NCBI GenBank assembly: GCA_014859895.1
Contig: JACZKS010000010.1
Coordinates: forward strand, 43,489 to 107,488
DNA length: 64,000 nucleotides
Direction: 5' to 3'
DNA from: Rhodospirillales bacterium
GTDB taxonomy: Bacteria; Pseudomonadota; Alphaproteobacteria; Rhodospirillales; Shumkoniaceae
Shown here: piece after piece, positions 3,726-64,000 of the stretch
How the letters are laid out: each line of letters begins with the position of its first letter
How positions within the stretch are numbered: the first letter of the stretch is position 1
Notes under the pieces: generated by a model
The model's input: the letters and a program-made list of their open reading frames with translations, nothing else
Told to the model about the DNA's origin: nothing
The model's database searches: none
Made by a program: the position numbers and the translations under genes

Positions 3726-4496
3726 TTACGACGTTTCGATTGCCTGTCGGATCCGGTTGAGCGCGCCGCGCGCCTGCCCGATCATGAAGGCCAGATCGCT
3801 TGCGCAGGCGACGAAGCGGAACCCTTTGGCGAAACACTCCGCGACCATCTCGGGCGCACCGAACACCGTCCCGGCGGGCTTGCCCACGGCCTCGCAACGG
3901 CGCACGAAATCGAACACGGCGGCCCGCACGTCCTCATGGCCGGGATTGCCCCTGTGGTCCATCGCTGCGGACAGGTCCCCCGGCCCGATGAAGAGCGCGT
4001 CGATGCCGGGAACGGCGGCAATCTCCTCCAGGTGGGCGAGGGCCTCGGGCGTTTCGATTTGTGCAATGACGGTCACGGTGTCATCGGCGATCTTGGCGTA
4101 GTCGCCGATCGCCGTGTATCGGCTGGCCCGGGTCATCAACGCGTAGCCGCGCTTGCCGTGCGGCGGATAGCGGGTCAAGGACACCACGCGGGCGGCCTCC
4201 TCCGGCGTCTCGACCATGGGCACCATCAGCGTCCGCGCGCCCGCGTCGAGCAGAAATTTGATTTCTGTGGCGTCCTGATCCGGCAGGCGAACGATGGGCA
4301 TCGTGCCGGTCAGTTCCATCGCGCGCAGGCAGGCCGTGGTGTCGGCCAAGGTGTGGGGAGCATGTTCGATGTCCAATGTCAGGAAATCGAACCCGATCCA
4401 CCCCATGGCCTCGGCGGCGTTCGGGCTGGCACACATGGACCATGAGCCGATGAGTTTACGGTCTTGGGCTAAAGCCGATTTGAAAGCGTTGTCCAT
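3726..4496 (-). CDS. HpcH/HpaI-family class II aldolase
   Basis: 256 residues, the full family length. The fold is recognised from FLTLDIEHAPH, LDAGARTLMVPMVETPEEA, the KRG loop and DALFIGPGDLSAAM near the end. The acidic residues in these segments bind the divalent metal, and the Arg in VRLPD holds pyruvate. Members split 2-keto-3-deoxy sugar acids, or 4-hydroxy-2-oxo acids, into pyruvate and an aldehyde. The gene starts 18 bases after the dehydratase stop, so dehydratase plus aldolase give a two-step non-phosphorylating sugar-acid route. Exact chain length and stereochemistry cannot be read from sequence. Confidence 0.9.
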   Translation of the reverse strand: MDNAFKSALAQDRKLIGSWSMCASPNAAEAMGWIGFDFLTLDIEHAPHTLADTTACLRAMELTGTMPIVRLPDQDATEIKFLLDAGARTLMVPMVETPEEAARVVSLTRYPPHGKRGYALMTRASRYTAIGDYAKIADDTVTVIAQIETPEALAHLEEIAAVPGIDALFIGPGDLSAAMDHRGNPGHEDVRAAVFDFVRRCEAVGKPAGTVFGAPEMVAECFAKGFRFVACASDLAFMIGQARGALNRIRQAIETS

Positions 4497-4514
4497 AATT
4501 TTACATGTCTTCCT

Positions 4515-6236
4515 TCAGTAGATGCTCGGATCTTTGACCGTTCCCGGCCTCGCCAGATAATCGAAGTCGCTGCCTTCGCTGGCCTGCATAACATGCTCGG
4601 TGAACATCGCACCGTAGCCGCGTTCATACCGGGGAAGGGGCGGTGTCCAGGCGGATCGGCGGCGTTCCAGTTCGGCGTCGTCCACCAGCAGTTCGAGCCG
4701 CCCCTCCGAAGCGCTGACCCGGATCGGGTCTCCGTCGTGAACGAGGGCGAGGAGGCCGCCGACCGCAGCCTCTGGTGAAACGTGGAGGACGCAGGTGCCG
4801 TCGCGGGTGCCGCTCATCCGGGCATCCGATACCCGGAGCACGTCTCGCACGCCCTTGCGCAGCAATTTCTTGGGAATCTGCATGTCGCCCCATTCCGGCA
4901 ACCCGGCGGCGACAGAGCCGCCCATGCGCAGAACGAAGACGGTGTTCTCGTCCACGTCCAACGACTCATCGTCGATGCGCGCGCTCATATCCTCGTAGCC
5001 GTCGAAGACGACGGCCGGGCCCGTATGTTCCAACAGACGAGGACTCGCCGCGCTGGACTTCACGACGGCACCGTCGGGGGCCAGGTTGCCGCGCAGGACG
5101 GCAATCGTCGGGCGATCACTGAGCGGCTTGTCGAGCGGTCGGATGACTTCGTCGTTGTAAACCTTGCTGCCCTCTATCGCTTCGCCCAGCGTCCGGCCCT
5201 CGACCGTGAGTGCGCCGAGGTCAAGGTGGTCGCGGATTCGCCACAACAACGCCTTCAACCCGCCGGCATAGTAGAAGTCCTCCATCAAATACCGGCCGGA
5301 GGGCATCAGATCCGCAATGACCGGAACCTTGCGCGCGGCCTCGGCCATGTCATCCAGCGTCAGGACAAGTCCCAGGCGTTTTGCCATGCCGATCAGGTGA
5401 ACCGCGGCGTTGGTCGAGCCCCCCAGCGCCATCCATGTGATCAAGCCGTTGCGCATCGATCGATCGGTCACGATGTCGGCGGGTTTCAAATCCTCCCAGA
5501 CCATCTCGACGATCCGTTCGCCGACGTCCGTCGCCATGCGCGGGTGCGCCGAATCGACGGCCGGAATGGAGGACGCGCCGGTCAACGACAGGCCCATGGC
5601 GTCGACGATCGATGTCATGGTCGATGCCGTGCCCATCGTGTTGCAGGTGCCGTTGGCACGAGTCATCGCTTCCTCGACCTCGCCCCAATCCTCCTTGCTG
5701 ATGCGGCCGCCACGCAAGTCATCCCAGAACCGCTTGGTATCGGTGCCGACACCGATGCGCTGGTTGCGCCACATGCCGTTCAGCATGGGCCCGGCGGGAA
5801 AGAAGATGCAGGGTAACCCCATCGAGAATGCGCCCATCAGCAGCGCCGGCGTCGTCTTGTCGCAGCCGCCCATCAGAACCACGCCATCGATGGGATGGCT
5901 GCGGATCAGCTCCTCGGTCTCCATGGCCAGGAAATTCCGGTAGAACATCGTCGAGGGCTTGACCATCACCTCACCCAACGACATCGCCGGAAGCTCGATT
6001 GGAAATCCACCGGCTCGCCAGATCCCGCGGCGAATCTCTTCGGCTCTTTCCCTCAGGTGATAGTGACAGGTGCTCATCTCACTCCAAGTGTTGATGAGCC
6101 CGATCACCGGGCGACCGACGAAGTCGCTTCGTCGAAATCCGATCTGCATCATCCGTTGGCGGTGAGCGAAGGATCGCAGGTGCTCTGTTCCAAACCAGCG
6201 AAAGCTGCGAAGTGTTTCCGGTGCCTTCTTGGGCAT
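4515..6236 (-). CDS. IlvD/Edd-family sugar-acid dehydratase
   Basis: 573 residues. Three conserved cluster-ligating cysteines are seen in STCHYH, GGCDKTTPA and GTCNTMG, in the arrangement of IlvD/Edd Fe-S dehydratases. The family turns 2,3-dihydroxy acids into 2-keto-3-deoxy acids. An aldonate dehydratase (arabinonate or xylonate type) is favoured over branched-chain dihydroxyacid dehydratase because the gene sits with an HpcH aldolase, a solute transporter and a LacI regulator. I chose the ATG at 6236, which has GGGGAG five bases upstream; the track's 6251 start is TTG. It is the first gene of the operon. Confidence 0.9.
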   Translation of the reverse strand: MPKKAPETLRSFRWFGTEHLRSFAHRQRMMQIGFRRSDFVGRPVIGLINTWSEMSTCHYHLRERAEEIRRGIWRAGGFPIELPAMSLGEVMVKPSTMFYRNFLAMETEELIRSHPIDGVVLMGGCDKTTPALLMGAFSMGLPCIFFPAGPMLNGMWRNQRIGVGTDTKRFWDDLRGGRISKEDWGEVEEAMTRANGTCNTMGTASTMTSIVDAMGLSLTGASSIPAVDSAHPRMATDVGERIVEMVWEDLKPADIVTDRSMRNGLITWMALGGSTNAAVHLIGMAKRLGLVLTLDDMAEAARKVPVIADLMPSGRYLMEDFYYAGGLKALLWRIRDHLDLGALTVEGRTLGEAIEGSKVYNDEVIRPLDKPLSDRPTIAVLRGNLAPDGAVVKSSAASPRLLEHTGPAVVFDGYEDMSARIDDESLDVDENTVFVLRMGGSVAAGLPEWGDMQIPKKLLRKGVRDVLRVSDARMSGTRDGTCVLHVSPEAAVGGLLALVHDGDPIRVSASEGRLELLVDDAELERRRSAWTPPLPRYERGYGAMFTEHVMQASEGSDFDYLARPGTVKDPSIY

Positions 6237-6278
6237 GGCGCTCCCCGCCAATTAGGAAAACGTTATTGCTTATTGGCT

Positions 6279-6313
6279 TTGGTATCGATACCAAGCTTCT
6301 GGTATCGATGTCA
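6279..6313. promoter_or_regulatory. Tandem LacI-family operators
   Basis: A perfect 16-base palindrome, TTGGTATCGATACCAA (6279-6294), is followed by a degenerate copy, TGGTATCGATGTCA (6300-6313). Their centres are 20 bases apart, near two helical turns. They lie between the divergent dehydratase operon and the LacI-type gene. The central CG and arm length fit LacI/GalR operators, so the adjacent regulator is the likely ligand. Confidence 0.8.
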
Positions 6314-6376
6314 AACCCTGATTTGGGCTATGGTTGGCAACGCAAGTAATGTCGAAACGACCTAAGAGGTTTGGCT

Positions 6377-7423
6377 GTGCCCGTTTCCGAAGAGTTGTCC
6401 CATTCGGCGCCTCAGAGCCATGAACGCCGTCGTGTCACCATGCAGGACGTGGCGCGCCGTGCCGGCGTGGGAACGATTACGGTGTCGCGAGCCTTAAGCG
6501 ATCCGCAAAAGGTCTCGGCCCCATTGCGAGCCCGGATCGAAGACGCGATCCGGGATCTCGGATATGTTCCCAACCGCATGGCGGGTTGGCTTTCCTCCCG
6601 GCGATCCCGCGTCGTGCCGATCATCGTGCCGGTCATTCAAAACGCCGTGTTTTCCGACGTGGTCGAGGGTCTTAACGATCACCTGCTTGACCAGGGATAC
6701 CAAATCCTTCTGGGGACATCTAATTATGATCCCAGGCGGGAAGAGGCTCTGATCGCGGCGTTCCTTGGGTGGACACCTCAAAGTATTGTCGTCCTCGGCA
6801 CCGAGCACACCGAAGCGGCCCGCCGAATGCTAACCGATACCGAAATGACCGTCATCGAGCTGTTCGAGCTTGTTGACGCCCCCATCGAGATCAACATCGG
6901 CTTTTCCCACCGGCAGGCCGCACGGGACATGGCCCTTCACCTCGTGGAGCGTGGATACCGCACGATCGCCTTCGTCGGCGCGTTCATGCATCGTGATCGC
7001 CGGGCGGAGATCCGTTGCCGAGGGTGCATGGACTGCCTTCGCGAGCATGGTCTGATTGCCGATCGCGTCCTCTCCTACGAAGAACGCTCTACACTGGATA
7101 TCGGCGCGCACGCCATCTGTGCCGTGCTTGAGAAATGGCCGGATACGGACGCGGTCTTTTTCGCCAACGATGTCCTCGCCGGGGGCGCGTTGATGGAGTG
7201 CCAGCGGCGGGGAATTGCCGTTCCCGGACGGGTGGCGATCGCCGGATTTGGCGGGCTACCGATCGGTACCCGTACCACACCCGAGCTGACGACCGTGGTC
7301 TCCCCGCGCTATCAGGTGGGCGAAATGGCGGCGCGCGTCATTCTTGAAACCAAGGACGCGCCGCGAAAGAAGAAGCGGGTGATCGAAGTGCCCTATTCGC
7401 TTCTCATTCGCCAGAGCACCTGA
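6377..7423 (+). CDS. LacI/GalR-family transcriptional regulator
   Basis: 348 residues from a GTG at 6377, which has AAGAGG seven bases upstream; the track start, TTG at 6371, is too close to that site. The N-terminal helix-turn-helix reads VTMQDVARRAGVGTITVSRALSD, followed by the hinge helix (YVPNRMAGWLSS) and a periplasmic-binding-protein-like effector domain to the end. It is divergent from the dehydratase operon with the palindromes between them, so it most likely represses that operon and itself, released by a sugar acid or its keto-deoxy product. Confidence 0.92.
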   Translation: MPVSEELSHSAPQSHERRRVTMQDVARRAGVGTITVSRALSDPQKVSAPLRARIEDAIRDLGYVPNRMAGWLSSRRSRVVPIIVPVIQNAVFSDVVEGLNDHLLDQGYQILLGTSNYDPRREEALIAAFLGWTPQSIVVLGTEHTEAARRMLTDTEMTVIELFELVDAPIEINIGFSHRQAARDMALHLVERGYRTIAFVGAFMHRDRRAEIRCRGCMDCLREHGLIADRVLSYEERSTLDIGAHAICAVLEKWPDTDAVFFANDVLAGGALMECQRRGIAVPGRVAIAGFGGLPIGTRTTPELTTVVSPRYQVGEMAARVILETKDAPRKKKRVIEVPYSLLIRQST

Positions 7424-32669: not shown

Positions 32670-33110
32670 ATGGCCACCGATCGCCGCACGCTGAACCTGT
32701 TCGACTGGCAGCCGCCCGTGGTGGCCCATAAGGCCGAGAAGGTCCGCGCCGCGAGCTTCCGGGCCAAGCTGGCGAAGGCGGTCTCGACGACGCTGAAGGA
32801 GTGCGGGCGCACCCGCGCCAACGTGGCCTCCGAGATGTCCGCGATGCTGGATGCCGAGATCAGCGAGCACGTGCTGAATGCCGCGGCCAGCGAGAGCAGA
32901 GAAGATCACCTATTGAACCCCGAGCGGCTGTGGGCCTTGTGCACGGTGACCGGCGACTTCCGGCCGGTCGCCGTCCTGCTCGACCGCTCCGACAACGTAT
33001 TGATCGACAAGCGCTGGCTGGGCGCCGTCCGCGAAGCCATCGCGACGGCCGAAAAAGAGCGGCTGGACGTGGTCATTAAGGCCGCGCGCCGCGAATGGAG
33101 GGGTGCATGA
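32670..33110 (+). CDS. Conserved Mu-like phage protein before transposase
   Basis: 146 residues, start three bases after the ParB stop, end overlapping muA by four bases. It has a predicted helical N-terminus with FRAKLAKAVSTTLKECGRTRANVASEMSAMLD, resembling an HTH, and DHLLNPERLWALCTVTGDFRPV in the middle. Proteins of this kind precede the transposase in many Mu-like prophages and probably bind DNA; the function is not known. Confidence 0.7.
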   Translation: MATDRRTLNLFDWQPPVVAHKAEKVRAASFRAKLAKAVSTTLKECGRTRANVASEMSAMLDAEISEHVLNAAASESREDHLLNPERLWALCTVTGDFRPVAVLLDRSDNVLIDKRWLGAVREAIATAEKERLDVVIKAARREWRGA

Positions 33111-35317
33111 AGGCGTGGATGACGGCGGCGAAGATCGCCGCCCTCAAGCTTCCTGGCGTACCGGAATCGGAGAGTGGCGTAATCCGCCGGGCAAAGCGGG
33201 ACGGATGGCCGTCGAAACCGAATACCGAACAGGGCGGCGGCCTTGTCTATGATACCTCCATCCTACCACTGTCGGCGCGCCTCGCCCTGGCGGCGATGGA
33301 GGCCAAGGAATCGGCGGCGCAGATCCAAGTGGGTAATCTGCCCACTCAGGCGGGCGGTGCCGCCGATGACGAGGTCCCGACCACCGAAGTGGCCGTGCTG
33401 AGGCGCGACGCGCGCTTGGTCATCACCGGACTTTTCCGTGACTTTCTGGCGCGCTCGCGCCTGGCACCTACCCTGGCCCGCCAGATCTTCTGCGAACTTT
33501 ACAACCTTGCCGGGGAGACTACGGTCGATGCCGACGGCAACCACGTGGCCCGCGAGGGCGCCTATCTGGTCGCTGTGCCGGCGTGGGTGCGCAAGGCCAA
33601 GGCGCGGATATCGCCGAACAGTATCCGCAACTGGCAGATCCTGGCCGAGGAAGGCCGGGTCGGCCGCCTCGCCGGCGCCTACAAGGGGCGCCCCAAGGGG
33701 GGCACACTGGGCCAGGCCAACGGCGGCGAGGTCGCCACTTTCATCGGCGCGCTGCTCGTGCACGCGCCACACCTCAAGGCCGAGGCCATCCGCGACCAGG
33801 TGCGCGAGCGTTTCGGCGACCAGGTCGACGTCGTGGTCGAATCGACCGGCGAGGTGCGCGCCGTCGAGATGCCGCCGATCCGCACCTTCCAGCGCTTCGT
33901 GGCCGCCTGGAAGGATGAAAACGCCGCTCTGCTCAAGCGCGAGACGGACCCCGACGGCTTCAAGAACACCATGCGGATCTCGGGCCGCGGCATGAACGCC
34001 TGGGTGACCAGCCCGAACATGCTATGGGAGATCGACGCCAGCCCCGCCGACGCGCTGCTCACCGACGGCCGCCATTCGGTCTATGTGGTGGTCGACATCT
34101 ACACCCGGCGGATGATCGTCCTGGTCACCAAGACGCCGCGTACCGAGGCGGTGCTCGCCCTCATCCGCAAGGCCATCCTGGCCTGGGGCGTGCCCGAGAT
34201 CATCCGCACCGACAACGGCTCGGATTTCAGCTCGCGCTGGGCGGTGTCGGCGATCGCCGGCCTGGGCATCAAGATCGACGTCTGCGACCCCTACTCGCCC
34301 TGGCAGAAGGGCACGGTCGAGCGTCACATCGGCACGCTGCAGCATTCCTTCATGGAGTTGCTTCCCGGCTACGTCGGGCACAGCGTGGCTGACCGCAAAA
34401 AGATCGAGGCGCGCAAGGAGTTCTCGAAGCGCCTCGGCCAGTCTGACGCCAAGGCGTTCGAGGTCCAGCTCACCGCCGCCGAGCTGCAAGCCCTGGTCGA
34501 CGAATGGTGCGACCTGAAATACGCCAACCGCGCCCACGCCGGTCTTAAGGGAAAAACCCCCTTCGAGATGGCCACGGCCTGGACAGGCCCGGTCCGGCGC
34601 ATCGAGAACGAACGCGCGCTGGACCTCTTCCTGGCGCCGATCGCTGGGAAGGACGGCTTCAAGCAGGTCACCAAGTTCGGCATCAAATACGACCAGGCCG
34701 ACTTCCGCCATTTCGCCCTCGTGCCCGGCACCCGCGTCTTCTGCCGCCACGATCCGGCCGACATGGGCCGGCTCGTGGTCTACGAGGAGGACAAGGTCAC
34801 CTTCCTTTGCGTGGCGGAGTGCGCCGAGCGCCTGGGCAAGGACCCCGGTGAGGCGGTGCGCGAACTGCGCGTCGCCCAGAAGGCCCGCCTGGATGCCGAG
34901 GTCGCGCCGCTCAGGCGCGAGATCGCCCGCATGAAGCCGCGCGACATGATCGACCGCACACTGGAGGTGGCCCGCCGCGATCACGGCACTGTCATCGCGC
35001 TCCCGAAGCGCAGCGAAACCCACACCAGCCCCGGCCTGGACGGCGCCGCCGAGGCGGCCCGCGTCATGGACGGCCGGGCGCCCGAGCGCACCCGCGAGCC
35101 GGAATCCCGGCCGGAGGCGCGCATCGCCCACTTCGAGATCCCGAAGACGGAGATCCAGTTGAAGCGGGAACGCTACGCGCGCGCCCAGGCTATCGAGACC
35201 GCGACGGATGAGGGGCGGCCGGTGTCTGCTGAGGACGCCGTGTGGCTCGCCCGCTACGTGCGCACCCCGGAATACCAGGGATTTGCCATGACCTACGGCG
35301 CCTCCGCCGAGGCCTGA
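33107..35317 (+). CDS. A: Mu-type transposase A
   Basis: 736 residues, near the length of MuA. N-terminal Mu-type winged helix (MTAAKIAALKLPGVPESESGVIRRAKRDGW), a longer DNA-binding region, then the DDE catalytic core: Asp in MLWEIDASPADAL (about residue 309), Asp in IRTDNGSDFSSRW (about 369) and Glu in KGTVERHIGTLQ (about 405). A C-terminal domain for MuB contact follows. It carries out replicative transposition of the phage. I chose ATG 33107, with GGAGGGG just upstream, over 33095. Confidence 0.96.
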   Translation: MKAWMTAAKIAALKLPGVPESESGVIRRAKRDGWPSKPNTEQGGGLVYDTSILPLSARLALAAMEAKESAAQIQVGNLPTQAGGAADDEVPTTEVAVLRRDARLVITGLFRDFLARSRLAPTLARQIFCELYNLAGETTVDADGNHVAREGAYLVAVPAWVRKAKARISPNSIRNWQILAEEGRVGRLAGAYKGRPKGGTLGQANGGEVATFIGALLVHAPHLKAEAIRDQVRERFGDQVDVVVESTGEVRAVEMPPIRTFQRFVAAWKDENAALLKRETDPDGFKNTMRISGRGMNAWVTSPNMLWEIDASPADALLTDGRHSVYVVVDIYTRRMIVLVTKTPRTEAVLALIRKAILAWGVPEIIRTDNGSDFSSRWAVSAIAGLGIKIDVCDPYSPWQKGTVERHIGTLQHSFMELLPGYVGHSVADRKKIEARKEFSKRLGQSDAKAFEVQLTAAELQALVDEWCDLKYANRAHAGLKGKTPFEMATAWTGPVRRIENERALDLFLAPIAGKDGFKQVTKFGIKYDQADFRHFALVPGTRVFCRHDPADMGRLVVYEEDKVTFLCVAECAERLGKDPGEAVRELRVAQKARLDAEVAPLRREIARMKPRDMIDRTLEVARRDHGTVIALPKRSETHTSPGLDGAAEAARVMDGRAPERTREPESRPEARIAHFEIPKTEIQLKRERYARAQAIETATDEGRPVSAEDAVWLARYVRTPEYQGFAMTYGASAEA

Positions 35318-35376: not shown

Positions 35377-36120
35377 ATGCAGAAAAGCGTGCCTACCGTC
35401 AACACCACGGCGATGCTGGCCAACGTCGCCCTGTTCTCAGAACTCGTGTCGCGCGTGCTCAACCGCAAGCCGCACCTGCCCGGCATCGGCGTCTTCCACG
35501 GCTTCTCGGGCTACGGCAAGACGTGCGCCGCCACCTTCGCGGCGCACAAGACGCGGGCCTTTTACCTGGAGGTCGGCGAGTCCTGGACCAAGGCGAAGTT
35601 CTGCCGGCACTTGCTGATCGAGCTGGGCGTCGAGCCCAAGGGCACCATCGCCGACATGGTGGACAGGGCGATCGAGGCCCTGGCCATGACGGCGGGGCGG
35701 CCGCTGATCGTCGATGAGTTCGATCACGTGGTGAAGCGCGGCTACCTGGAAACCGTGCGCGAGCTGCACGACAAGAGCGGGACGCCGGTGGTCATCATCG
35801 GCGAGGAGCTGCTTCCCTCCAAGATCGCCCAGGTCTCGGAACGGTTCCACGGCCGGGTGCTCGATTGGGTTCCCGCCCAGCCGGCCGACGTCGAGGACGC
35901 CGACGCCCTGGCAGCGCTCTATCACCCTCACCTCACCGTCGAGCGCGACCTGCTTTCCCACATCGTTACGAAGAGTGGCGGCCGCCCGCGGCGCATTTGC
36001 GTGAACCTCGAAAAGGTCCAGGCCTTCGCCGACGTCGAGGGGCTGGACGCGGTCGGCGTCAAGGCGTGGGGCGACCGACCGCTGTTCACCGGCGCGGCGC
36101 CGGCGCGGAGGGCCGCGTGA
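35377..36120 (+). CDS. B: Mu-type transposition ATPase B
   Basis: 247 residues of the MuB/TniB AAA+ group. Walker A is GVFHGFSGYGKTCAA, Walker B is RPLIVDEFDHV, and the C-terminal arm has SGGRPRRICVNLEKVQAFA. It binds target DNA with ATP and delivers it to the transposase. It overlaps the next gene by one base (TGATG). Confidence 0.94.
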   Translation: MQKSVPTVNTTAMLANVALFSELVSRVLNRKPHLPGIGVFHGFSGYGKTCAATFAAHKTRAFYLEVGESWTKAKFCRHLLIELGVEPKGTIADMVDRAIEALAMTAGRPLIVDEFDHVVKRGYLETVRELHDKSGTPVVIIGEELLPSKIAQVSERFHGRVLDWVPAQPADVEDADALAALYHPHLTVERDLLSHIVTKSGGRPRRICVNLEKVQAFADVEGLDAVGVKAWGDRPLFTGAAPARRAA

Positions 36121-52977: not shown

Positions 52978-54015
52978 ATGATCAAGACCATCCTCTCCGT
53001 CGCCGTCCTCGCCCTGATCGTCGGGGTCGGCCTGTTGGCGGGCCCGGCGCCCGACGCCTCGGCCCATGGCCTGCACGCCCTCGCCCAGGAGGGCGCCATC
53101 CCGGCGATCGGCCTGGGCGGCCTGGTCATCAACTCGGCCACCCTCAGAAGCCTTTACGTCGGCTTCAAGACCAGCTTCCAGAACGGCCTCGGCATGGCGA
53201 CCTCGCAGTGGCAGAGGATCGCCACTCTGGTGCCGTCGACCACCAAGGAGGAGAAATACGGCTGGCTTGGGAAGATCCCCGGCGTGCGCGAGTGGATCGG
53301 CGATCGCGTGATCCAGAACCTGATGGCCCACGGCTACGCCATCCTCAACAAGGACTGGGAACTGACGGTCGCGGTTTCGAAGCCGGACATCGAGGACGAC
53401 AACCTCGGGATCTACACCCCGATGTTCGCCGAGATGGGCCGCTCGGTCGCCGCCCATCCCGACCAGATGGTCTTCGGCCTGTTGAAGACCGGCTTCGCCA
53501 CGCCCTGCTATGACGGCCAGTACTTCTTCGACACGGACCACCTGGTGCTCGACGAGGCCGGCGATCCGCAGAGCGTCGCCAATACCGATGGCGGCGCCGG
53601 CACACCGTGGTTCCTGATCGACGACAGCCGGGCGCTGAAGCCGATCATCTTCCAGGAGCGGAAGAAGTTCCAGTTCGTCGCCCTCGACAAGGAGGACGAT
53701 CCGAACGTGTTCTTCAAGAAGGAGTTCGTCTATGGCTCCGATGGCCGCGACAATGTCGGCTTCGGCTTCTGGCAGTTTGCCTGGGGCTCCAAGCAGACGC
53801 TGGACGCCACCCACTATGCCGCCGCCCGGGCCGCGCTGACGGGCATGAAGGGCGACTATGGCCGGCCGCTCGGCCTGATGCCGCGGCTCCTCGTGGTGGG
53901 TCCCGCATTGGAGGAGGCCGGCCGCAAGCTCCTCAACAGTGAGAACGGCGCCAACGGCGAGACCAACCCGTGGAAGGGCACCGCCGAGCTGCTTGTCGTG
54001 CCGTGGCTGGCGTGA
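52978..54015 (+). CDS. Major capsid protein (Mu gpT) with signal-like leader
   Basis: 345 residues. From about residue 48, VINSATLRSLYVGFKTSFQNGLG...WQRIATLVPSTTKEEKYGWLGKIPGVREWIGDRVIQNL is the usual gpT beginning, and the rest follows gpT to the end (GTAELLVVPWLA). Ahead of it is MIKTILSVAVLALIVGVGLLAGPAPDASAHGLHALAQEGA, which looks like a Sec signal peptide. The ATG has AGGAG nine bases upstream, and no start codon exists near the normal gpT N-terminus, so the leader is really encoded. Confidence 0.88.
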   Translation: MIKTILSVAVLALIVGVGLLAGPAPDASAHGLHALAQEGAIPAIGLGGLVINSATLRSLYVGFKTSFQNGLGMATSQWQRIATLVPSTTKEEKYGWLGKIPGVREWIGDRVIQNLMAHGYAILNKDWELTVAVSKPDIEDDNLGIYTPMFAEMGRSVAAHPDQMVFGLLKTGFATPCYDGQYFFDTDHLVLDEAGDPQSVANTDGGAGTPWFLIDDSRALKPIIFQERKKFQFVALDKEDDPNVFFKKEFVYGSDGRDNVGFGFWQFAWGSKQTLDATHYAAARAALTGMKGDYGRPLGLMPRLLVVGPALEEAGRKLLNSENGANGETNPWKGTAELLVVPWLA

Positions 54016-54029
54016 GGGAGGACTGAACC

Positions 54030-54254
54030 ATGAAGATGATCCGCATCATTGCCAAGCCCGCCGCCGGCTTCCGCCGCGCCGGCATGTACCACCCGGCCAA
54101 GGCCGTCGACCACCCGGCCGACGACATCACGGCCAAGCAACTCAAGGCCCTCAAGGAAGAGCCCCAGCTCGTCGTCCAGGAGGTCGAGGTTCCCGACAAG
54201 CCGGCCGCCAAAAGCGACGACGGCAAGCCGACCAAGACCAACAAGAATCCCTGA
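54030..54254 (+). CDS. Small phage head protein, HI1506-like
   Basis: 74 residues. IRIIAKPAAGFRRAGMYHPAKAVDHPADDITAKQLKALKEEPQLVVQEVE is the pattern of the short FluMu-like protein that follows gpT in Mu-like prophages; the tail is Lys-rich. Function unknown. Confidence 0.7.
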   Translation: MKMIRIIAKPAAGFRRAGMYHPAKAVDHPADDITAKQLKALKEEPQLVVQEVEVPDKPAAKSDDGKPTKTNKNP

Positions 54255-54280
54255 GGCCGCCCAGCGGCCGACTCGCCGAA

Positions 54281-54316
54281 GCCCCCGGGCGGAGCCCGCC
54301 CGCTCCGCCCGGGGGC
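54281..54316 (+). terminator. Strong GC hairpin after capsid block
   Basis: GCCCCCGGGCGGAGC-CCGCCC-GCTCCGCCCGGGGGC, perfect 15-base arms. No T-tract. It may reduce read-through from the highly expressed capsid genes into the tail genes or protect the capsid mRNA. Confidence 0.6.
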
Positions 54317-54332
54317 ATGATTTGAGGAACCC

Positions 54333-54758
54333 ATGCCCTACGCCACCCAACAGGACCTGATCGACCGCTACGGCGAGGATGAGCTGATCGCCCTCACCGA
54401 CCGCGCGAACCCGCCGGCCGGGGCGATCGATGCCGCCGTGGTGGCCAGGGCGCTCGCCGATGCCGACAGCCTGATCGATGGCTATGTCGGCAGCCGCTAT
54501 GCGCTGCCGCTGGCCGAGGTGCCGCCGCTGCTGACGCAGATCGCCTGCGCCGTGGCCCGCTATCGCCTGGCGAAGGACGGCCCCACCGAAAACCTCACCA
54601 AGGATCACGACACGGCCCTGCGTACGCTGCGCGACATCGCGGACGGCCGCCTGGCGCTGCCGGTCGGCGAGACCGAGACGCCGGCGCCGGCGTCGGTCGG
54701 CGTCGCCATCGCCGGCCCGGGCCGGGTGTTCTCCGCCGACACGCTGAAGGATTTCTGA
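54333..54758 (+). CDS. DUF1320 protein (Mu gp36)
   Basis: 141 residues. MPYATQQDLIDRYGEDELIALTDR...ALADADSLIDGYVGSRYALPLAEVPPLLTQIACAVARYRL is the DUF1320 pattern of the head-tail connector group. Confidence 0.88.
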   Translation: MPYATQQDLIDRYGEDELIALTDRANPPAGAIDAAVVARALADADSLIDGYVGSRYALPLAEVPPLLTQIACAVARYRLAKDGPTENLTKDHDTALRTLRDIADGRLALPVGETETPAPASVGVAIAGPGRVFSADTLKDF

Positions 54759-54759
54759 G

Positions 54760-55203
54760 ATGGCCGGCGTTTCCATCCAGGTCGGCCTCGACACCAAGGA
54801 TCTGGAGGAAGCGTTCGCGCGCCTGGAGACGGCCATGGATGACATGACCGAACCGATGGACGCCATCGGCGCCGGGCTCGACTCCTCCATGCTCAGCCGC
54901 TTCGAGCACGAAACCGGCCCCGACGGCGTTCGCTGGACGCCCAGCCAGCGGGCGCTGCTGACCGGCGGCCAGACCCTCACCCATCGCGGCCACCTGCGCG
55001 CCTCGGGCACGCACATCGCCTCGCGCCATTCGGTGATGCAGGGCAGCAACCTGGTCTACGCCCGCCCCCAGCACGCCGGCGGCAAGGTTGGACGCGGGCG
55101 CAAGGTCACGCTCCCGGCGCGGCCCTTCGTCGGCGTCGACGGCGATGACCGGACAATGATCCACGACACCATCCAGGACTTCCTTGAGGAGGCCGCGCGA
55201 TGA
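54760..55203 (+). CDS. Virion morphogenesis protein (Mu gpG type)
   Basis: 147 residues with LETAMDDMTEPMDAIGAGLDSSMLSRFEHETGPDGVRWTPSQRALLTGGQTLTHRGHLRASGTHIAS and ARPFVGVDGDDRTMI, the signature of tail completion/virion morphogenesis proteins. Starts two bases after gp36 and overlaps the next gene. Confidence 0.88.
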   Translation: MAGVSIQVGLDTKDLEEAFARLETAMDDMTEPMDAIGAGLDSSMLSRFEHETGPDGVRWTPSQRALLTGGQTLTHRGHLRASGTHIASRHSVMQGSNLVYARPQHAGGKVGRGRKVTLPARPFVGVDGDDRTMIHDTIQDFLEEAAR

Positions 55204-55730
55204 GCCTCATGGATCTTCAGGACGCGGCGGTCGCCGCCATCGAGGCACGCTTCCCGAAGCTCAAAAGCTGCGAGCGGCACCCCGGCCGCTTCGACCTCGA
55301 CGAACTGGGGCGGTTTCTCACCGTGGCGCCGGCTGTGCGTGTCGCCCTGCTGTCGATCGGTGGGGCGGCCGGCACCGAAGAAGGCCTGGCCCAAGGTGAC
55401 GCCAGGCTTGCCGCGTTCATCGTCACCCGCGACGCTGGCAACGTGGACAAGGACAAAGCAGCGCAGGCCATCGTCGACGGCCTGATCCCCCTGGTCACGG
55501 GCTTCGGCCAGGAGGTGCGTGGCGAGAACCTGTATTCCACTCCGGCCGGCAAGCAGGGCGTCGCCCTGTGGGCGGTCACCTGGGTCCAGCGGGCCGAAAT
55601 GGGCACGCTGGTCGCCGAGGACGGCGAGATGCCCGAGCACCTCTACGCCTCGATGTCGCCGAAGATCGGCGCGGCGCACGAAGCCGACTATCGCGACGTC
55701 TCGACCGGGGAGGCCCCCGATGGCGCTTAA
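55200..55730 (+). CDS. DUF1834 protein (Mu gp37)
   Basis: 176 residues; beta-rich with GRFLTVAPAVRVALLSIGG and ARLAAFIVTRDAGNVDKDKAAQAIVDGLIPLVTG. In Mu it follows gpG and gp36 at the head-tail interface. It is the last Mu-ordered gene before the P2-ordered tail and overlaps it by eleven bases. Confidence 0.82.
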   Translation: MSLMDLQDAAVAAIEARFPKLKSCERHPGRFDLDELGRFLTVAPAVRVALLSIGGAAGTEEGLAQGDARLAAFIVTRDAGNVDKDKAAQAIVDGLIPLVTGFGQEVRGENLYSTPAGKQGVALWAVTWVQRAEMGTLVAEDGEMPEHLYASMSPKIGAAHEADYRDVSTGEAPDGA

Positions 55731-56316
55731 CCGTGACATGGAGATGGCCGAGTTGGACCGCCGCCTCGCCAACGTGGTGCGCATCGGCACCGTCGCCGAG
55801 GCCGACTATCCGGCCGCCCGGGTGCGTGTGGCGATCGGCGACAACCTCACCGGCGGGCTGCCGTGGCTGACCGCGCGGGCCGGCGGCGACCGCGCCTGGT
55901 GGGCGCCCGAGGTGGGCGAACAGGTGATGGTGTTCTCGCCCGGCGGCGACCTCGCCCAAGGCGTGGTGCTGCCCGCCCTCTTCTCCAACGCGGCGCCGGC
56001 GCCAGCCGACAGTCCCGACATCCGCCGCGAGGTCTACGCCGACGGCCTGGTCATCGAGCACGACCGCGCGAAGAAGCTGACCCGCCTCAACGCGCTCGAC
56101 TCCGAAGGCACGCTGGTGCTGGAGGCCAAGAACATCGTCATCCGCACCGGCGACGGCGGGTACTACCAGCTGGACCATCACGGCATGGCCAGCCGCATCA
56201 CCCACGTGGGCGGCGCCGCCTTCGAGACCGATTCCTGGCAGGCCGGCGCGGTGGTGACTGCCAACGCCGACCAGGACTACAGCCCGCCCGAAGTCCAAAC
56301 CCCCGAGGAGAGCTGA
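55720..56316 (+). CDS. V: Baseplate assembly protein V (spike)
   Basis: 198 residues from ATG 55720. RRLANVVRIGTVAEADYPAARVRVAIGDNLTGGLPWLTARAGGDRAWWAPEVGEQVMVFSPGGDLAQGVVLPALFS is the oligosaccharide-binding fold of gpV; a beta-helix-like C-terminal part follows. It forms the membrane-piercing spike of the contractile tail. Confidence 0.9.
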   Translation: MALNRDMEMAELDRRLANVVRIGTVAEADYPAARVRVAIGDNLTGGLPWLTARAGGDRAWWAPEVGEQVMVFSPGGDLAQGVVLPALFSNAAPAPADSPDIRREVYADGLVIEHDRAKKLTRLNALDSEGTLVLEAKNIVIRTGDGGYYQLDHHGMASRITHVGGAAFETDSWQAGAVVTANADQDYSPPEVQTPEES

Positions 56317-56319
56317 AAG

Positions 56320-56496
56320 ATGCCGAAGAAAACCTACACCATCGAAAAGACCACGCCGCGCCTGGGCAAGGCCGGCGATACCGTCACGATGACGGAGCGC
56401 GGAGCCAAGTACTGGCTGCTTTCCGGCGTGATCTCCGACCCCGCCAAGGCGGCGTCCGAAACCAAGCCGCCGAAGGCCAAGGGCAAGAAGGGCTGA
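56320..56496 (+). CDS. Small Lys-rich tail protein
   Basis: 58 residues, below the ORF track limit. ATG 56320 three bases after V. MPKKTYTIEKTTPRLGKAGDTVTMTERGAKYWLLSGVISDPAK then a Lys-rich end. It resembles short cement-like proteins beside baseplate genes; no named family. Confidence 0.65.
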   Translation: MPKKTYTIEKTTPRLGKAGDTVTMTERGAKYWLLSGVISDPAKAASETKPPKAKGKKG

Positions 56497-56499
56497 GCC

Positions 56500-56844
56500 A
56501 TGGCCGGCACGCTGGGCATGAGCCGATCGACGGGCCAGGGGATGGATGGGCTGGAGCACCTGTTCCAGTCGATCCGCGACATCCTGACCACGCCGATCGG
56601 CACGCGGCCCATGCGGCGCGAGTACGGCTCGGACCTGTTTTCCCTGATCGACCGGCCGGCCGAGCCCGGGCTCTTCATCGAGATCTACGCCGCGATCGCC
56701 GCGGCGCTGGCCAAGTGGGAGCCGCGCTTCAAGCTCACCTACGTCAAGGCGACGCGGGCCGAGGCCGGGCTGCTGGAGATCGACCTGCGCGGCCTTTACC
56801 TGGTCGACGGCCGCGAGATCACGCTGGAAGGAGTGGTGGCATGA
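56500..56844 (+). CDS. W: Baseplate wedge protein W (gp25-like)
   Basis: 114 residues. GLEHLFQSIRDILTTPIGTRPMRREYGSDLFSLIDRP is the GPW/gp25 family core. Its ATGA end was presumably the junction with gene J, which now lies 930 bases on, after the inserted DUF4145 unit. Confidence 0.9.
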   Translation: MAGTLGMSRSTGQGMDGLEHLFQSIRDILTTPIGTRPMRREYGSDLFSLIDRPAEPGLFIEIYAAIAAALAKWEPRFKLTYVKATRAEAGLLEIDLRGLYLVDGREITLEGVVA

Positions 56845-56849
56845 AGACG

Positions 56850-57548
56850 TCAGTCGCCCTTCCGCCTTTCGGCAATCCTCTTCGGAAGCACGAAAGTGAC
56901 GTCGAGAAACAGCTTCATGAACTCGAAGAGTTCGGCGGCTTGCTCGATAGTTCCTTCAATCTCATGGACAGCGGCGTTGCCGTCCAGCCTCAGGCGATGC
57001 GCCCACTCGGCGAGTGGCTTGGTCAGCAACGTCTTTCCAAGCAGATCGTCGATCCGATCGCGAAGGTTTCGCCCCTCGCCGCCAAGCTCCTTGCAGGCGA
57101 CTTCGAGCACGGAACGACATCCCGCAAGCGCCAGTTCCGGGCTCTCCTTTCGCCGAACCATGCCTTCGATCGTGGGAATGAGGGCCCGCGCCTTCTTGGG
57201 AAAAGCCGGATCATCGGCGCCCGCCGGAGACTTCGGAAAGGTGTCGATCACCGCGTATTTTCCATCGACGAAGCCGGCCGCGACCCGGATGGACTCCTTG
57301 GCCGCGCTCTGCATCTTGATGAAATCCGACGCAGCGACCTCGAAGACAATGAGAACGGGGCAATCGCATATCGGGCAGCCACCACTTCCGTAGCAGCGAA
57401 CCGGCGGTCGGTTCGACGTCATCTCCGTTTCGGTTCGAATGTGAGGGAAGACCGGCACCCCGGTCTTGAAGCGATATTCGAAGAGATTCGAGACCGCGAG
57501 ATCCACGCGGTTTCCGCAGTGAGGGCAGTCGATGCGCGGCTGAAACAT
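56850..57548 (-). CDS. Antisense DUF4145-family protein
   Basis: 232 residues from ATG 57548. N-terminal zinc ribbon CPHC...CPICDC, linker DPAFPKKARALIPTIEGMVRRKESPELALAGCRSVLEVACKELG and the hallmark helix WAHRLRLDGNAAVHE, followed by ELFEFMKLFLDVTFVLPKRI. This is DUF4145, which occurs alone and within restriction-type nucleases and is often found near defence genes. It lies antisense between W and J. The track's 596-residue version reads through J in the wrong frame. Codon third positions are less GC-rich than in the flanking tail genes, which suggests recent acquisition. Confidence 0.87.
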   Translation of the reverse strand: MFQPRIDCPHCGNRVDLAVSNLFEYRFKTGVPVFPHIRTETEMTSNRPPVRCYGSGGCPICDCPVLIVFEVAASDFIKMQSAAKESIRVAAGFVDGKYAVIDTFPKSPAGADDPAFPKKARALIPTIEGMVRRKESPELALAGCRSVLEVACKELGGEGRNLRDRIDDLLGKTLLTKPLAEWAHRLRLDGNAAVHEIEGTIEQAAELFEFMKLFLDVTFVLPKRIAERRKGD

Positions 57549-57576
57549 GGTGAGGCTTCCCGGCGGAGAGTGGCCC

Positions 57577-57777
57577 ATGGATGAGACGACTATCAATCGG
57601 GCATGCACCTCAAGGCTGTCAACCGTCTTGGAAAACACCACACCTGAGACGTCCGTTGATTCCTTCATGGCGGCCATCGCCCCGATCCGGCAGGAGTTTG
57701 GCGACGATATCCTGATTCTCTGTCTTGCCGTTGAACTTGCGGTGGCGGATTTCCGAAATCGGGGGGCACGCGGATGA
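57577..57777 (+). CDS. Small ORF divergent from DUF4145 gene
   Basis: 66 residues from ATG 57577 (GGAGAG eight bases upstream). MDETTINRACTSRLSTVLENTTPETSVDSFMAAIAPIRQEFGDDILILCLAVELAVADFRNRGARG is helical and acidic. It shares a 28-base divergent start region with the DUF4145 gene, and its stop overlaps the J start as ATGA. Possibly a partner or control protein of the DUF4145 product. No family recognised. Confidence 0.6.
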   Translation: MDETTINRACTSRLSTVLENTTPETSVDSFMAAIAPIRQEFGDDILILCLAVELAVADFRNRGARG

Positions 57778-58751
57778 GCCGGTTCGCCGCCGTCGACCTG
57801 TCCAGCTTGCCGAAGCCCGAGGTGGTCGAAACCCTGGAGTTCGAGGCGATCCTCGCCGCGCTCAAGGCCGACTTCATCGGCCGCGATCCCGACTATTCGG
57901 CGACCACCCTGGAATCCGATCCGGTGGTGAAGGTGCTGGAAGTGGCGGCCTACCGCGAAGTGATCCTCCGCCAGCGGGTCAACGACGCGGCGCGCCAGCG
58001 GATGCTCCCCTATGCCACCGGCGCCAACCTGGAAGTGTTGGGCGCCGACCAGGGCGTCTACCGCCTGATCCTGGACCCCGGCGACCCCGACGCCGTGCCG
58101 CCGGTCGATCCGACCTACGAGACGGACGACGACCTGCGCCGGCGCATCCAGCTGGCGCCCGAGGCCCTGACCACCGCAGGCTGCGAGGGTAGCTATGTGT
58201 TCAATGGCCTGACCGCCGGCGAAACCCCCGTGTCCATCGATGTCGCCTCGCCCGACGAAACCACCGTGACGCTGACCTACACCTTCGACGCCGGCGGCCT
58301 GTCGGCCAAGATCAAGGATGCCACCGCCATCCGGCCCGAGGCCGGCAGCGTCCTGGTGACCGTGCTGGGCCGCGAGGGCGACGGCACGGTCGACGCCCCC
58401 ACATGCGCCATCGTCGAGGCCAACCTGTCGGCCGCCAGCGTGCGGCCCTTGTGCGACGAGGTCACCGTGCAATCGGCGACCATCGTCGGATACACGGTTA
58501 CGGCGCTGCTTACGGTCTACGATGGGCTCGACCGCGACGCCGTCCAGGCGGCCGCCGATGCCTCCATGCGGGCGATTGCCGAGAAGCGCCACGCCCTGGG
58601 CGAGGACGTCACGCAATCGGTGATCGATGCCGCGCTGCATGTGGCCGGCGTCAAGAAGGTGATGCTGACCGACTGGGCCGATGTAGCGTGCGACGATACC
58701 GAGGCGCCGTACATGATCGGCCTGGCGCTGACGACGGAGCTGGCGGCATGA
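57774..58751 (+). CDS. J: Baseplate protein J
   Basis: 325 residues with the gpJ pattern: VVETLEFEAILAALKADF, ATTLESDPVVKVLEVAAYREVILRQRVNDAARQRMLPYATGANLEVLGADQGVYR, and RRRIQLAPEALTTAGCEGSYVFNGL. Wedge of the baseplate. ATGA overlaps with both the small ORF and gene I. Confidence 0.92.
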   Translation: MSRFAAVDLSSLPKPEVVETLEFEAILAALKADFIGRDPDYSATTLESDPVVKVLEVAAYREVILRQRVNDAARQRMLPYATGANLEVLGADQGVYRLILDPGDPDAVPPVDPTYETDDDLRRRIQLAPEALTTAGCEGSYVFNGLTAGETPVSIDVASPDETTVTLTYTFDAGGLSAKIKDATAIRPEAGSVLVTVLGREGDGTVDAPTCAIVEANLSAASVRPLCDEVTVQSATIVGYTVTALLTVYDGLDRDAVQAAADASMRAIAEKRHALGEDVTQSVIDAALHVAGVKKVMLTDWADVACDDTEAPYMIGLALTTELAA

Positions 58752-59314
58752 CCAAGAGCCTGCTTCCCCCGAACGCGACCGCCCTGGAGCTGGCCCTGGA
58801 GGGAGTGGCGGCCGACAGGGTCGAGGCCATCCCGGTTCCGATCCCGACGGTAAACGATGCCGCCCAGTGCCCCGCTCCCGTGCTGCCGTTCCTCGCCTGG
58901 GGCCGATCCGTCGACGTCTACGACGCGAGCTGGTCCGACGCCACGAAGCGCACCGTCGTCGGCCAGGCCATGGCCCTGCATCGCATCAAGGGCACCCTGC
59001 AATCCGTCGTCGCCGCGATCGCGGCCTGGGGGATCGAGGCCACAGTGATCGAACGCGCCGGCGCCCGCCGCTACGACGGCGCCCAGGCCCATGACGGCCG
59101 CTGCCTGTACGGTCCGGCCAACGGCTGGGCGATGTACCGGGTGATCCTCAATCGGGCTATCCGCAACGACCAGGTGGCCGGCCTGCGCCGGCTGCTGGAA
59201 ATGACGGCGCCGAAGCGCTGCGAGCTGCTGAGCCTCGAATATCAGGAGGCCGCCAACCTCTACGACGGGCGCTCGACCTACGACGGCGCCTATAACCATG
59301 GAGTGGCTGTCTAA
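58748..59314 (+). CDS. I: Tail protein I
   Basis: 188 residues: LLPPNATALELALEGVAADRVEAIPVPIPTVNDAAQCPAPVLPFLAWGRSVDVYDASWSDATKRTVVGQAMALHRIKGTLQSVV is the P2 gpI/Mu gp48 family. Baseplate component joined to the fibre base. Confidence 0.9.
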   Translation: MTKSLLPPNATALELALEGVAADRVEAIPVPIPTVNDAAQCPAPVLPFLAWGRSVDVYDASWSDATKRTVVGQAMALHRIKGTLQSVVAAIAAWGIEATVIERAGARRYDGAQAHDGRCLYGPANGWAMYRVILNRAIRNDQVAGLRRLLEMTAPKRCELLSLEYQEAANLYDGRSTYDGAYNHGVAV

Positions 59315-59940
59315 TGGCCGACAACCTGACCATCAACGAAACGGCGACCTGGCCGGCGACCGTCAAGCTCATCGACACCGACGAGCCGGTGATCGGCGGC
59401 CTCGACGGTGTCTCCAACAAGCAGGCGATCACGCTGGCCAACCGCAGCCAATGGCTCAAGGCGCAGATCGACACGGTCATCGAGACGGCCTTGCTCGATC
59501 CGGACCCCCTTGACCTCTGGCAGCTCACTGAAGCTATCGCCACCCTCATCGCCGCCGCTCTGGCCGCCAGCCGCCCCGGCTTCGACGTTCCGTTCCTGGC
59601 GGGCTGGGCAAGCAATTTCACCGGCGAGGACCTGGTGGAGGGGCAAGTTGTCGCTCGCGTGATGGTCCTGCGCGACACCGTTCTCCAGGACTTCCTTGTC
59701 GATCTGGGGGTCGCCGGCACCGGCGCGGCCGTGATCTGGGACGTCACGGTCGGCGGCGTCACCGCCTTCATCACGAAACCGCAGTTCGCCGACGGCTCGA
59801 CCGTCTTCGTCCCCGGCGTGTTCGACCCGGCGATGGTCGACGTCCCGGCCGGCAGCATCGTCGAGATCCTGGTTTTCCAGGTCGGCACGGTGATCCGGGG
59901 CCAGAAGGCGACCGGCGGCCTCAAGGGCAGGGAGGCCTGA
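59314..59940 (+). CDS. Tail fibre/collar-like protein
   Basis: 208 residues. It starts MADNLTINETATWPATVKLIDTDEPVIGGLDGVSNKQAITLANRSQWLKAQIDTVI, a common N-terminus of phage fibre proteins that dock on the baseplate, followed by a beta-rich part. Probably the fibre base (H-like) with the distal part encoded by the next gene. Confidence 0.7.
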   Translation: MADNLTINETATWPATVKLIDTDEPVIGGLDGVSNKQAITLANRSQWLKAQIDTVIETALLDPDPLDLWQLTEAIATLIAAALAASRPGFDVPFLAGWASNFTGEDLVEGQVVARVMVLRDTVLQDFLVDLGVAGTGAAVIWDVTVGGVTAFITKPQFADGSTVFVPGVFDPAMVDVPAGSIVEILVFQVGTVIRGQKATGGLKGREA

Positions 59941-59942
59941 TC

Positions 59943-60812
59943 ATGCTCTATGCCGGGCATCGACAGGTTGCGCCATACGGCCAGCCACTGCTTCCATTGT
60001 GGACCATCCTGGATGCGGCAGGGATACAGGACGAAGCGACAATTTGCCTCGACGCTGGAGACCCCCTGTCGTGGCCGGGGAGCGGCCCTAAATGGCTGGA
60101 CCGCAGTCCGGGCGGCTATGACTGGTATCTTGGAGAGTCCGCCGAAGCCGACGCCGACCCCGTCTTTACGGGCGGCGTCGGGGACCTGAGAAGCACGACA
60201 TTCTGGGCTCTCGACGGCGCGAGCTGGTTTAAATACGACAGCGCCAACGAAGCTTTCATGAATGCCTGGCACGCGAACGGGGCGGCCTACACCTTCATGT
60301 TCCTGGTGTATCTGGCGGATGGGGCGGCCGACGGTGGGCTGATCGGCGCCACGACGATTCCGGGCGCGATGGCGGCTAACGTGGCGGTCGTCATGTCAAC
60401 CGGCAAGCTTGTGGCAATCGCCGAGGATGCATCTGCATCGAAGGGCGGTTTTTATACGAACAGCCTCGTGACCTCCGTCGATGCGCTTCCCGCGGGTTGG
60501 CACATGTTGGCGGTATCGGTCGATGAAGCCGTCGGCCCAGGCGGCGGTTTCTTGTATTGCGACGGCGCCTTTCTGCCGACCGCTGAGGCGGGCGGCGCGG
60601 ATACGTTCAATGCCACCTATGCCGTCCCAGGAACCGGGTCCGCCGCCACGACCTATCGGCTGGGCCGGTGGGGCACGTATGGGGATCTCACGGCCGTCAA
60701 GCCCATCAGTAGCGGCAGCCGTATCATGGGTTTCGCCTCGTTGAACAAGGCGGCGTCCAAGGCCGAACTGGACGCCGTGTGGGAACTTTCTCGCAAGCGG
60801 CTTGGTATCTAG
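59943..60812 (+). CDS. Tail fibre protein with LamG/concanavalin-like fold
   Basis: 289 residues. TICLDAGDPLSWPGSGPKWLDRSPGGYDWYLGES, then AYTFMFLVYLADG, WHMLAVSVDE and GGGFLYCDGAFL give a LamG-type lectin layout. Probably the receptor-binding part of the tail. GC is lower in third positions than in adjacent genes, as usual for exchanged host-range genes. Confidence 0.7.
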   Translation: MLYAGHRQVAPYGQPLLPLWTILDAAGIQDEATICLDAGDPLSWPGSGPKWLDRSPGGYDWYLGESAEADADPVFTGGVGDLRSTTFWALDGASWFKYDSANEAFMNAWHANGAAYTFMFLVYLADGAADGGLIGATTIPGAMAANVAVVMSTGKLVAIAEDASASKGGFYTNSLVTSVDALPAGWHMLAVSVDEAVGPGGGFLYCDGAFLPTAEAGGADTFNATYAVPGTGSAATTYRLGRWGTYGDLTAVKPISSGSRIMGFASLNKAASKAELDAVWELSRKRLGI

Positions 60813-63807: not shown

Positions 63808-64000
63808 GCGTCGGGAATGATCTCAACGTCGGCGTCGTCGTTACCGCCAAGGTCGGAAACGCCGTCCGCGAGGTCGGCAAGGCGGCCAAGGGCGTGCGCA
63901 AGGATACCGCCGACGTCGCCCAGAGCCAGCGCAGCCTGGCGCGGGCGAGCGACGACGCCGGGCGGTCGACCGGTCGCCTCGGCACCGCCCTGGCCGGGGC
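63804..64000 (+). CDS. T: Tail tape measure protein T, start only
   Basis: GTG 63804 overlaps the E' stop (GTGA). MSVGNDLNVGVVVTAKVGNAVREVGKAAKGVRKDTADVAQSQRSLARASDDAGRSTGRLGTALAG is the helical, Ala-rich start typical of tape measure proteins. About 65 codons are visible; the gene continues beyond the window. Confidence 0.85.
   Translation, partial: MSVGNDLNVGVVVTAKVGNAVREVGKAAKGVRKDTADVAQSQRSLARASDDAGRSTGRLGTALAG

Follow-up and report, generated by a model that had tools for sequence, protein, structure and literature searches.

In the 64,000-nucleotide stretch of a Rhodospirillales bacterium that was analyzed (hereafter, the window), the baseplate gene J of a prophage starts 933 bp beyond the position expected if it overlapped the preceding gene, W. 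What fills this interval, and what might it do for the phage that carries it? The carrier is a Mu-like transposable phage, with a transposase gene (33095-35317), a gene for a transposition protein (35377-36120), and terminase, portal, head and sheath genes. Between W and J sits a two-gene cargo (a moron) of roughly 930 bp, placed between two baseplate genes that would otherwise overlap. It consists of a minus-strand gene, which we call D, and a small plus-strand gene, S (Table 1). The window ends, at 64000, with the end of contig C182, and the right end of the prophage falls outside the window.

Table 1. Features of the W/J junction and its insert, in window coordinates
Feature	Position	Strand	Description	Evidence
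W	56500..56844	+	Baseplate wedge gp25-like, 114 aa; upstream flank	PF04965 (GPW_gp25), E 6.5e-14; phrog_43, E 3.7e-39
ATGA	56841..56844	+	Presumed ancestral overlap of W stop and J start, now before the insert	Same overlap in 18/28 other junctions
D	56850..57548	-	232 aa, zinc ribbon and HEPN/DUF4145; proposed anti-phage effector	PF13643, phrog_1305, PADLOC, AlphaFold, dN/dS
CATG	57546..57549	both	Overlapped starts of D (minus) and S (upstream start, plus)	Same in L003, Pben1, L050, L053, L052, L054 and E. coli prophage pairs
S	57547..57777	+	Small partner ORF; 76 aa when started in the shared CATG, 66 aa when started at the inner ATG (57577)	Predicted three-helix; stop overlaps J start
ATGA	57774..57777	+	Overlap of S stop and J start	Read in the sequence; likewise in L052, S stop and GemA start
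J	57774..58751	+	Baseplate J-like, 325 aa; downstream flank	PF04865 (Baseplate_J), E 8.1e-14; phrog_6, E 3.9e-51
Antisense frame over D	56841..57584	+	Opens at the ATGA of W, stops just past the inner ATG of S	dN/dS 1.2

Most of what an earlier, sequence-only reading had described at this site was borne out: a W gene ending in ATGA (its 3' end reads GC-ATGA) with J some 930 bases further on, a minus-strand DUF4145 gene, and a small ORF whose stop overlaps the start of J as ATGA. Codon use also departs from that of the tail genes, as that reading had said, with a GC3 of 0.73 for D and 0.64 for S, compared with 0.86 to 0.94 for the phage genes; overall GC content is 0.598 in the insert and 0.676 in the late region. 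The small divergent ORF had been given as 66 residues. Its presence and strand stand, but its length is more probably 76 residues, because an upstream ATG forms, with the start of D, the CATG overlap that also marks the other pairs described later. The proposal that coupling to J is restored by the overlap of the S stop and the J start fits the sequence, which reads ATGAGCC both here and where the S gene of another Mu-like phage, L052, overlaps GemA. We recognized no consensus promoter or terminator within the insert, and no convincing direct repeat flanking it, beyond ATGA, that would point to a mechanism of insertion.

To compare occupied and empty junctions, J homologues were gathered from alphaproteobacterial genomes of the same order and class. 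Among 28 other distinct W/J junctions, no comparable insert was seen. In 18 of them, W and J overlap by exactly the four bases ATGA, and in most others the two genes lie within a few bases of each other; the widest gap is about 115 bp, and one junction lacks a clear J start. The claim that the cargo lies exactly at the W/J junction is thus upheld by 28 junctions without it and by one phage in IMG/VR, IMGVR_UViG_3300037424_003001, which carries this insert in the identical place and is the sole other copy found. With all 28 other junctions unoccupied, the idea that W/J is a general hotspot for cargo is unsupported.

The second copy (L003) permits an assessment of selection. Amino acid identity between the two phages is 99% for W, 97% for D, 91% for S and 89% for J. 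The dS values of D and S are nearly equal (0.136 and 0.129) and lie between those of W (0.043) and J (0.41); we therefore conclude that D and S travelled together and that their flanks are mosaic. Differences in D fall mostly at third codon positions (22, compared with 8 at first and 1 at second positions). With dN/dS values of 0.14 (D) and 0.33 (S), both genes are under purifying selection between the two copies. For the S genes of Paracoccus phage Pben1 and the IMG/VR locus L050, the corresponding ratio is 0.17. The sequence-only reading had held that absence from all other phages, together with decay in the frame, would count against a functional unit; a second copy exists, and its frames and those of the window are intact. 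A functionless, decaying passenger, for which the rarity of the insert (two copies at this junction) could be cited, is accordingly very improbable, because in both phages the frames of D and S are intact and the two genes are under purifying selection. Over a wider stretch (window 53600-60200, compared with locus L007 of the IMG/VR phage), the alignment is a mosaic, with high identity at 56500-58000 and 53600-54200, about 83% to 87% elsewhere, and a sharp fall past 59500.

An open frame also runs antisense to D. We rejected it as a protein gene, because its dN/dS is 1.2 and a frame in this position stays open by chance in 28% to 66% of simulations (0.28-0.66). At most, it might provide a path for ribosomes.

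D meets the DUF4145 family profile (PF13643) with an E value of 4.1e-16 and 59.3 bits, well above the Pfam gathering score of 23.1, and matches phrog_1305 over its full length (E 3.7e-23), a family that PHROG labels "DNA binding protein." Its N-terminal zinc ribbon has four invariant cysteines (C8, C11, C58 and C61), and R187, N191 and H195 are conserved in the C-terminal DUF4145 domain. The AlphaFold model is confident for the C-terminal half only (pLDDT about 80-95 over residues 121-230). In Foldseek, this half matched HEPN toxins (5yep and 6m6w) and other HEPN proteins first (probability 1.00, best E 7.9e-3), and 2hsb aligned with a TMt of 0.72 and an rmsd of 1.8. D is therefore predicted to adopt the all-helical HEPN fold. 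The canonical Rx4-6H motif of active HEPN RNases, at the end of helix 3, is absent from D, which has R187-x7-H195, with G190 at the position of the arginine in Rx4H; the same R-x7-H spacing is found in the DUF4145 chain 9y9c_OA. A genome-wide scan for close relatives of D returned none, and a scan with its conserved core returned one, in Gemmobacter; of 399 genomes sampled from the phylum, 57 encode proteins similar to D. A second, distinct DUF4145 gene lies elsewhere in the same genome (contig C152, about 2067-2642).

For S, profile searches gave no family match and structure searches no match, and the predicted structure has three helices (pLDDT 82.8). Sequence similarity to the S proteins of other phages is not significant (shuffle p 0.016-0.56; hhalign probability 0.4%; likewise by BLAST), and so the S proteins may be non-homologous. 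That a small second gene belongs to the unit, as the sequence-only reading had suggested, is nevertheless upheld by its co-inheritance with D, by purifying selection, and by partner ORFs similarly placed in other phages.

These partners define a layout that recurs in unrelated phages. In every paired case, D is opposed to a phage operon, S lies within that operon, and the two start codons overlap in CATG; across these pairs, the operon-strand ORF encodes 62-81 aa. The arrangement appears in a Paracoccus/Gemmobacter group of siphophages (Pben1, L050 and Gemmobacter L053), where the S proteins are 43-68% identical to each other. It appears also in L052, adjoining GemA; in lambdoid prophages of E. 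coli, for which RefSeq annotates a 2-nt overlap; and in L054, a likely prophage, where the neighbors are one CII-like and one helix-turn-helix gene. Overlapping-start ORFs arise by chance in 20 of 210 controls, and the partners recur above this rate. Because the layout was first noticed in these data and then sought in further ones, this chance figure serves as a guide only and not as a formal test. Relatives of D that run against a phage operon are found in Pben1, Klebsiella phage 2b, the E. coli lambdoids, L052, L053 and L054. No S partner is present beside the phage DUF4145 genes of Klebsiella 2b, Cartapus, Meyran and Mimir87, the last two of which lie on the sense strand, and the layout is rare in the wider chromosomal family of D.

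The occurrence of the two genes is asymmetric. Among 48 E. coli genomes, D and S are found together in 36; another 11 have S but no D, one combines S with a truncated D, and none carries D without S. In L050 (3674-5294), the D homologue is split by a transposase gene (ORFs at 3913-4694), and S is intact. Such an asymmetry would be expected of a harmful D with S as its antidote. Alternatives are clonality and, in E. coli, an S that predates D: the E. coli S also occurs without D, with a longer N-terminus of its own, and D may have landed next to an S that was already resident there. At the E. coli loci L068 and L069, an S-type gene without D has a different N-terminus and another gene upstream.

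An anti-phage role for D is plausible, given the HEPN fold, a similarity to the defense protein PD-T7-4, the positions of its phage-borne relatives, and the published biology of HEPN and DUF4145 proteins. The shared start codons, the longer S that they imply, and the recurring layout suggest further that S counteracts D during the lytic cycle of the phage itself. We tentatively favor, at a level somewhat short of probable, a model in which the lysogen expresses D as a HEPN-type anti-phage gene and the late operon supplies S as a self-exemption protein. Under this model, D would have its own promoter, be produced in the lysogen and act against infecting phages, probably on RNA and putatively as an RNase. 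S, as part of the late operon, would be made only during lytic growth of this phage and would bind or otherwise block D, sparing the phage harm from its own defense. D may be silenced further by late transcription that runs antisense through its gene.

The paired self-exemption is inferred from the layout and from a precedent in mechanism, the Tab/anti-Tab pair of the Mu-like phage JBD26 (PMC10884400). There, tab occupies the minus strand and has a promoter of its own, and anti-tab belongs to the plus-strand late operon and overlaps a neighbor; Tab is an 83-aa protein with no known domain that blocks tail assembly, and the pair is located between the small and large terminase genes. D and S share the overall plan of a phage-borne pair between two late genes, with a minus-strand gene and a small plus-strand gene that overlaps its operon neighbor (here, S with J). 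They differ in lying between W and J rather than between terminase genes, in the nature of D (a 232-aa zinc-ribbon HEPN protein), and in the side of the overlap, which involves the upstream gene for anti-tab and the downstream gene for S. What defines Tab/anti-Tab functionally is that the counter-protein binds the defense protein and is needed for growth of the phage itself, and we liken D/S to it only as a pair that may work in a similar way.

Other known systems resemble D more than they resemble the pair. The PADLOC model for PD-T7-4 (PDLC04109; Vassallo et al. 2022, PMC9519451) matches D at E 3.1e-8 over residues 134-227, but this covers only positions 94-190 of the model's 211, and PADLOC likewise calls PD-T7-4 for most relatives of D over the DUF4145 half only. 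We therefore rejected filing D as PD-T7-4. The description of PD-T7-4, in the portion available, also lacks the divergent small partner that D has. In the available portion of their survey, Anantharaman et al. (2013, PMC3710099) place DUF4145 in the HEPN superfamily and already list zinc-ribbon fusions and members from dsDNA viruses, features that D shares; D departs from that account in its R-x7-H spacing and in its head-to-head, overlapping-start partner, which that portion does not mention. HEPN-MNT pairs (SO_3166-SO_3165, MntA-HepT) provide the nearest solved folds to the C-terminal domain of D, but S is no MNT nucleotidyltransferase and the D and S genes are divergent. BxaP, which protects against T4, likewise has a DUF4145 domain (PMC10799925); unlike D, it has a HEAT-like C-terminal half and is BREX-associated rather than phage cargo.

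The similarity to PD-T7-4 could also be taken to mean that D works alone as an anti-phage gene, of the PD-T7-4 or zinc-ribbon DUF4145 sort, and that S is an unrelated small ORF that serves mainly to take translation across the insert into J. D alone matches PD-T7-4, single-gene DUF4145 loci exist in phages, the S of the window has no significant similarity to other S proteins, and its stop does overlap the J start. However, purifying selection on S (at the ratios given previously, both here and in Pben1/L050), its confidently predicted fold, and the recurrence of overlapping-start partners beyond the control rate argue otherwise, and we regard this explanation as rather unlikely. If D and S are indeed a pair, they might instead be a toxin-antitoxin or addiction-like system that stabilizes the prophage, with a HEPN toxin, S as antitoxin, and defense secondary, if any. 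The HEPN-MNT toxins that are structurally nearest to D fit this idea, as do E. coli genomes with S only and none with D only. Yet divergent genes with opposed transcription are unlike the usual antitoxin-toxin operon, and an antitoxin is needed in the lysogen, where S, as part of a late operon, would have little expression; we consider such a system improbable. Slightly more improbable still is a lysogenic-conversion or regulatory role for D, for example in binding RNA or DNA, with no part in anti-phage activity. The phrog_1305 label, the presence of similar proteins across sampled genomes of the phylum, and the noncanonical motif spacing are consistent with it, but the PD-T7-4 similarity, the moron positions in phages, and the occurrence of DUF4145 in restriction and Abi contexts (PMC3710099) are not what it would lead us to expect.

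A broader form of the self-exemption model can be stated, and we hold it with more doubt than the model for this locus. In this form, a mobile two-gene module, which encodes a zinc-ribbon effector of the HEPN/DUF4145 kind and a small, helical protein for self-exemption, would insert flush in gene junctions and keep its two starts in one CATG, so that the carrier operon makes the antidote and the defense is on in the lysogen and off in the lytic cycle. If true, the Tab/anti-Tab design of a lysogen-expressed defense with a lytic antidote would extend to a HEPN family that is common across many genomes, and more pairs could be sought by a simple rule, namely, a small phage-operon ORF that shares CATG with an opposed DUF4145 gene.

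Such genes are easily missed, and several are unannotated or misannotated in phage records. In Pben1 (MK291441.1, 6001-6801), the D homologue is not drawn as a single gene, and four short hypothetical CDS are drawn over it, three of them on the opposite strand; an identical stretch in IMG/VR 2773857629 is read in the same way. Klebsiella phage 2b (KY271395.1, about 5749-6381) has an unannotated DUF4145 gene, antisense, between the spanin and terminase genes. In the P2-like Cartapus (OV696611.1, 162-860), a DUF4145 gene lies between cos and portal, near the cos/portal defense hotspot of P2 that PMC9519451 describes.
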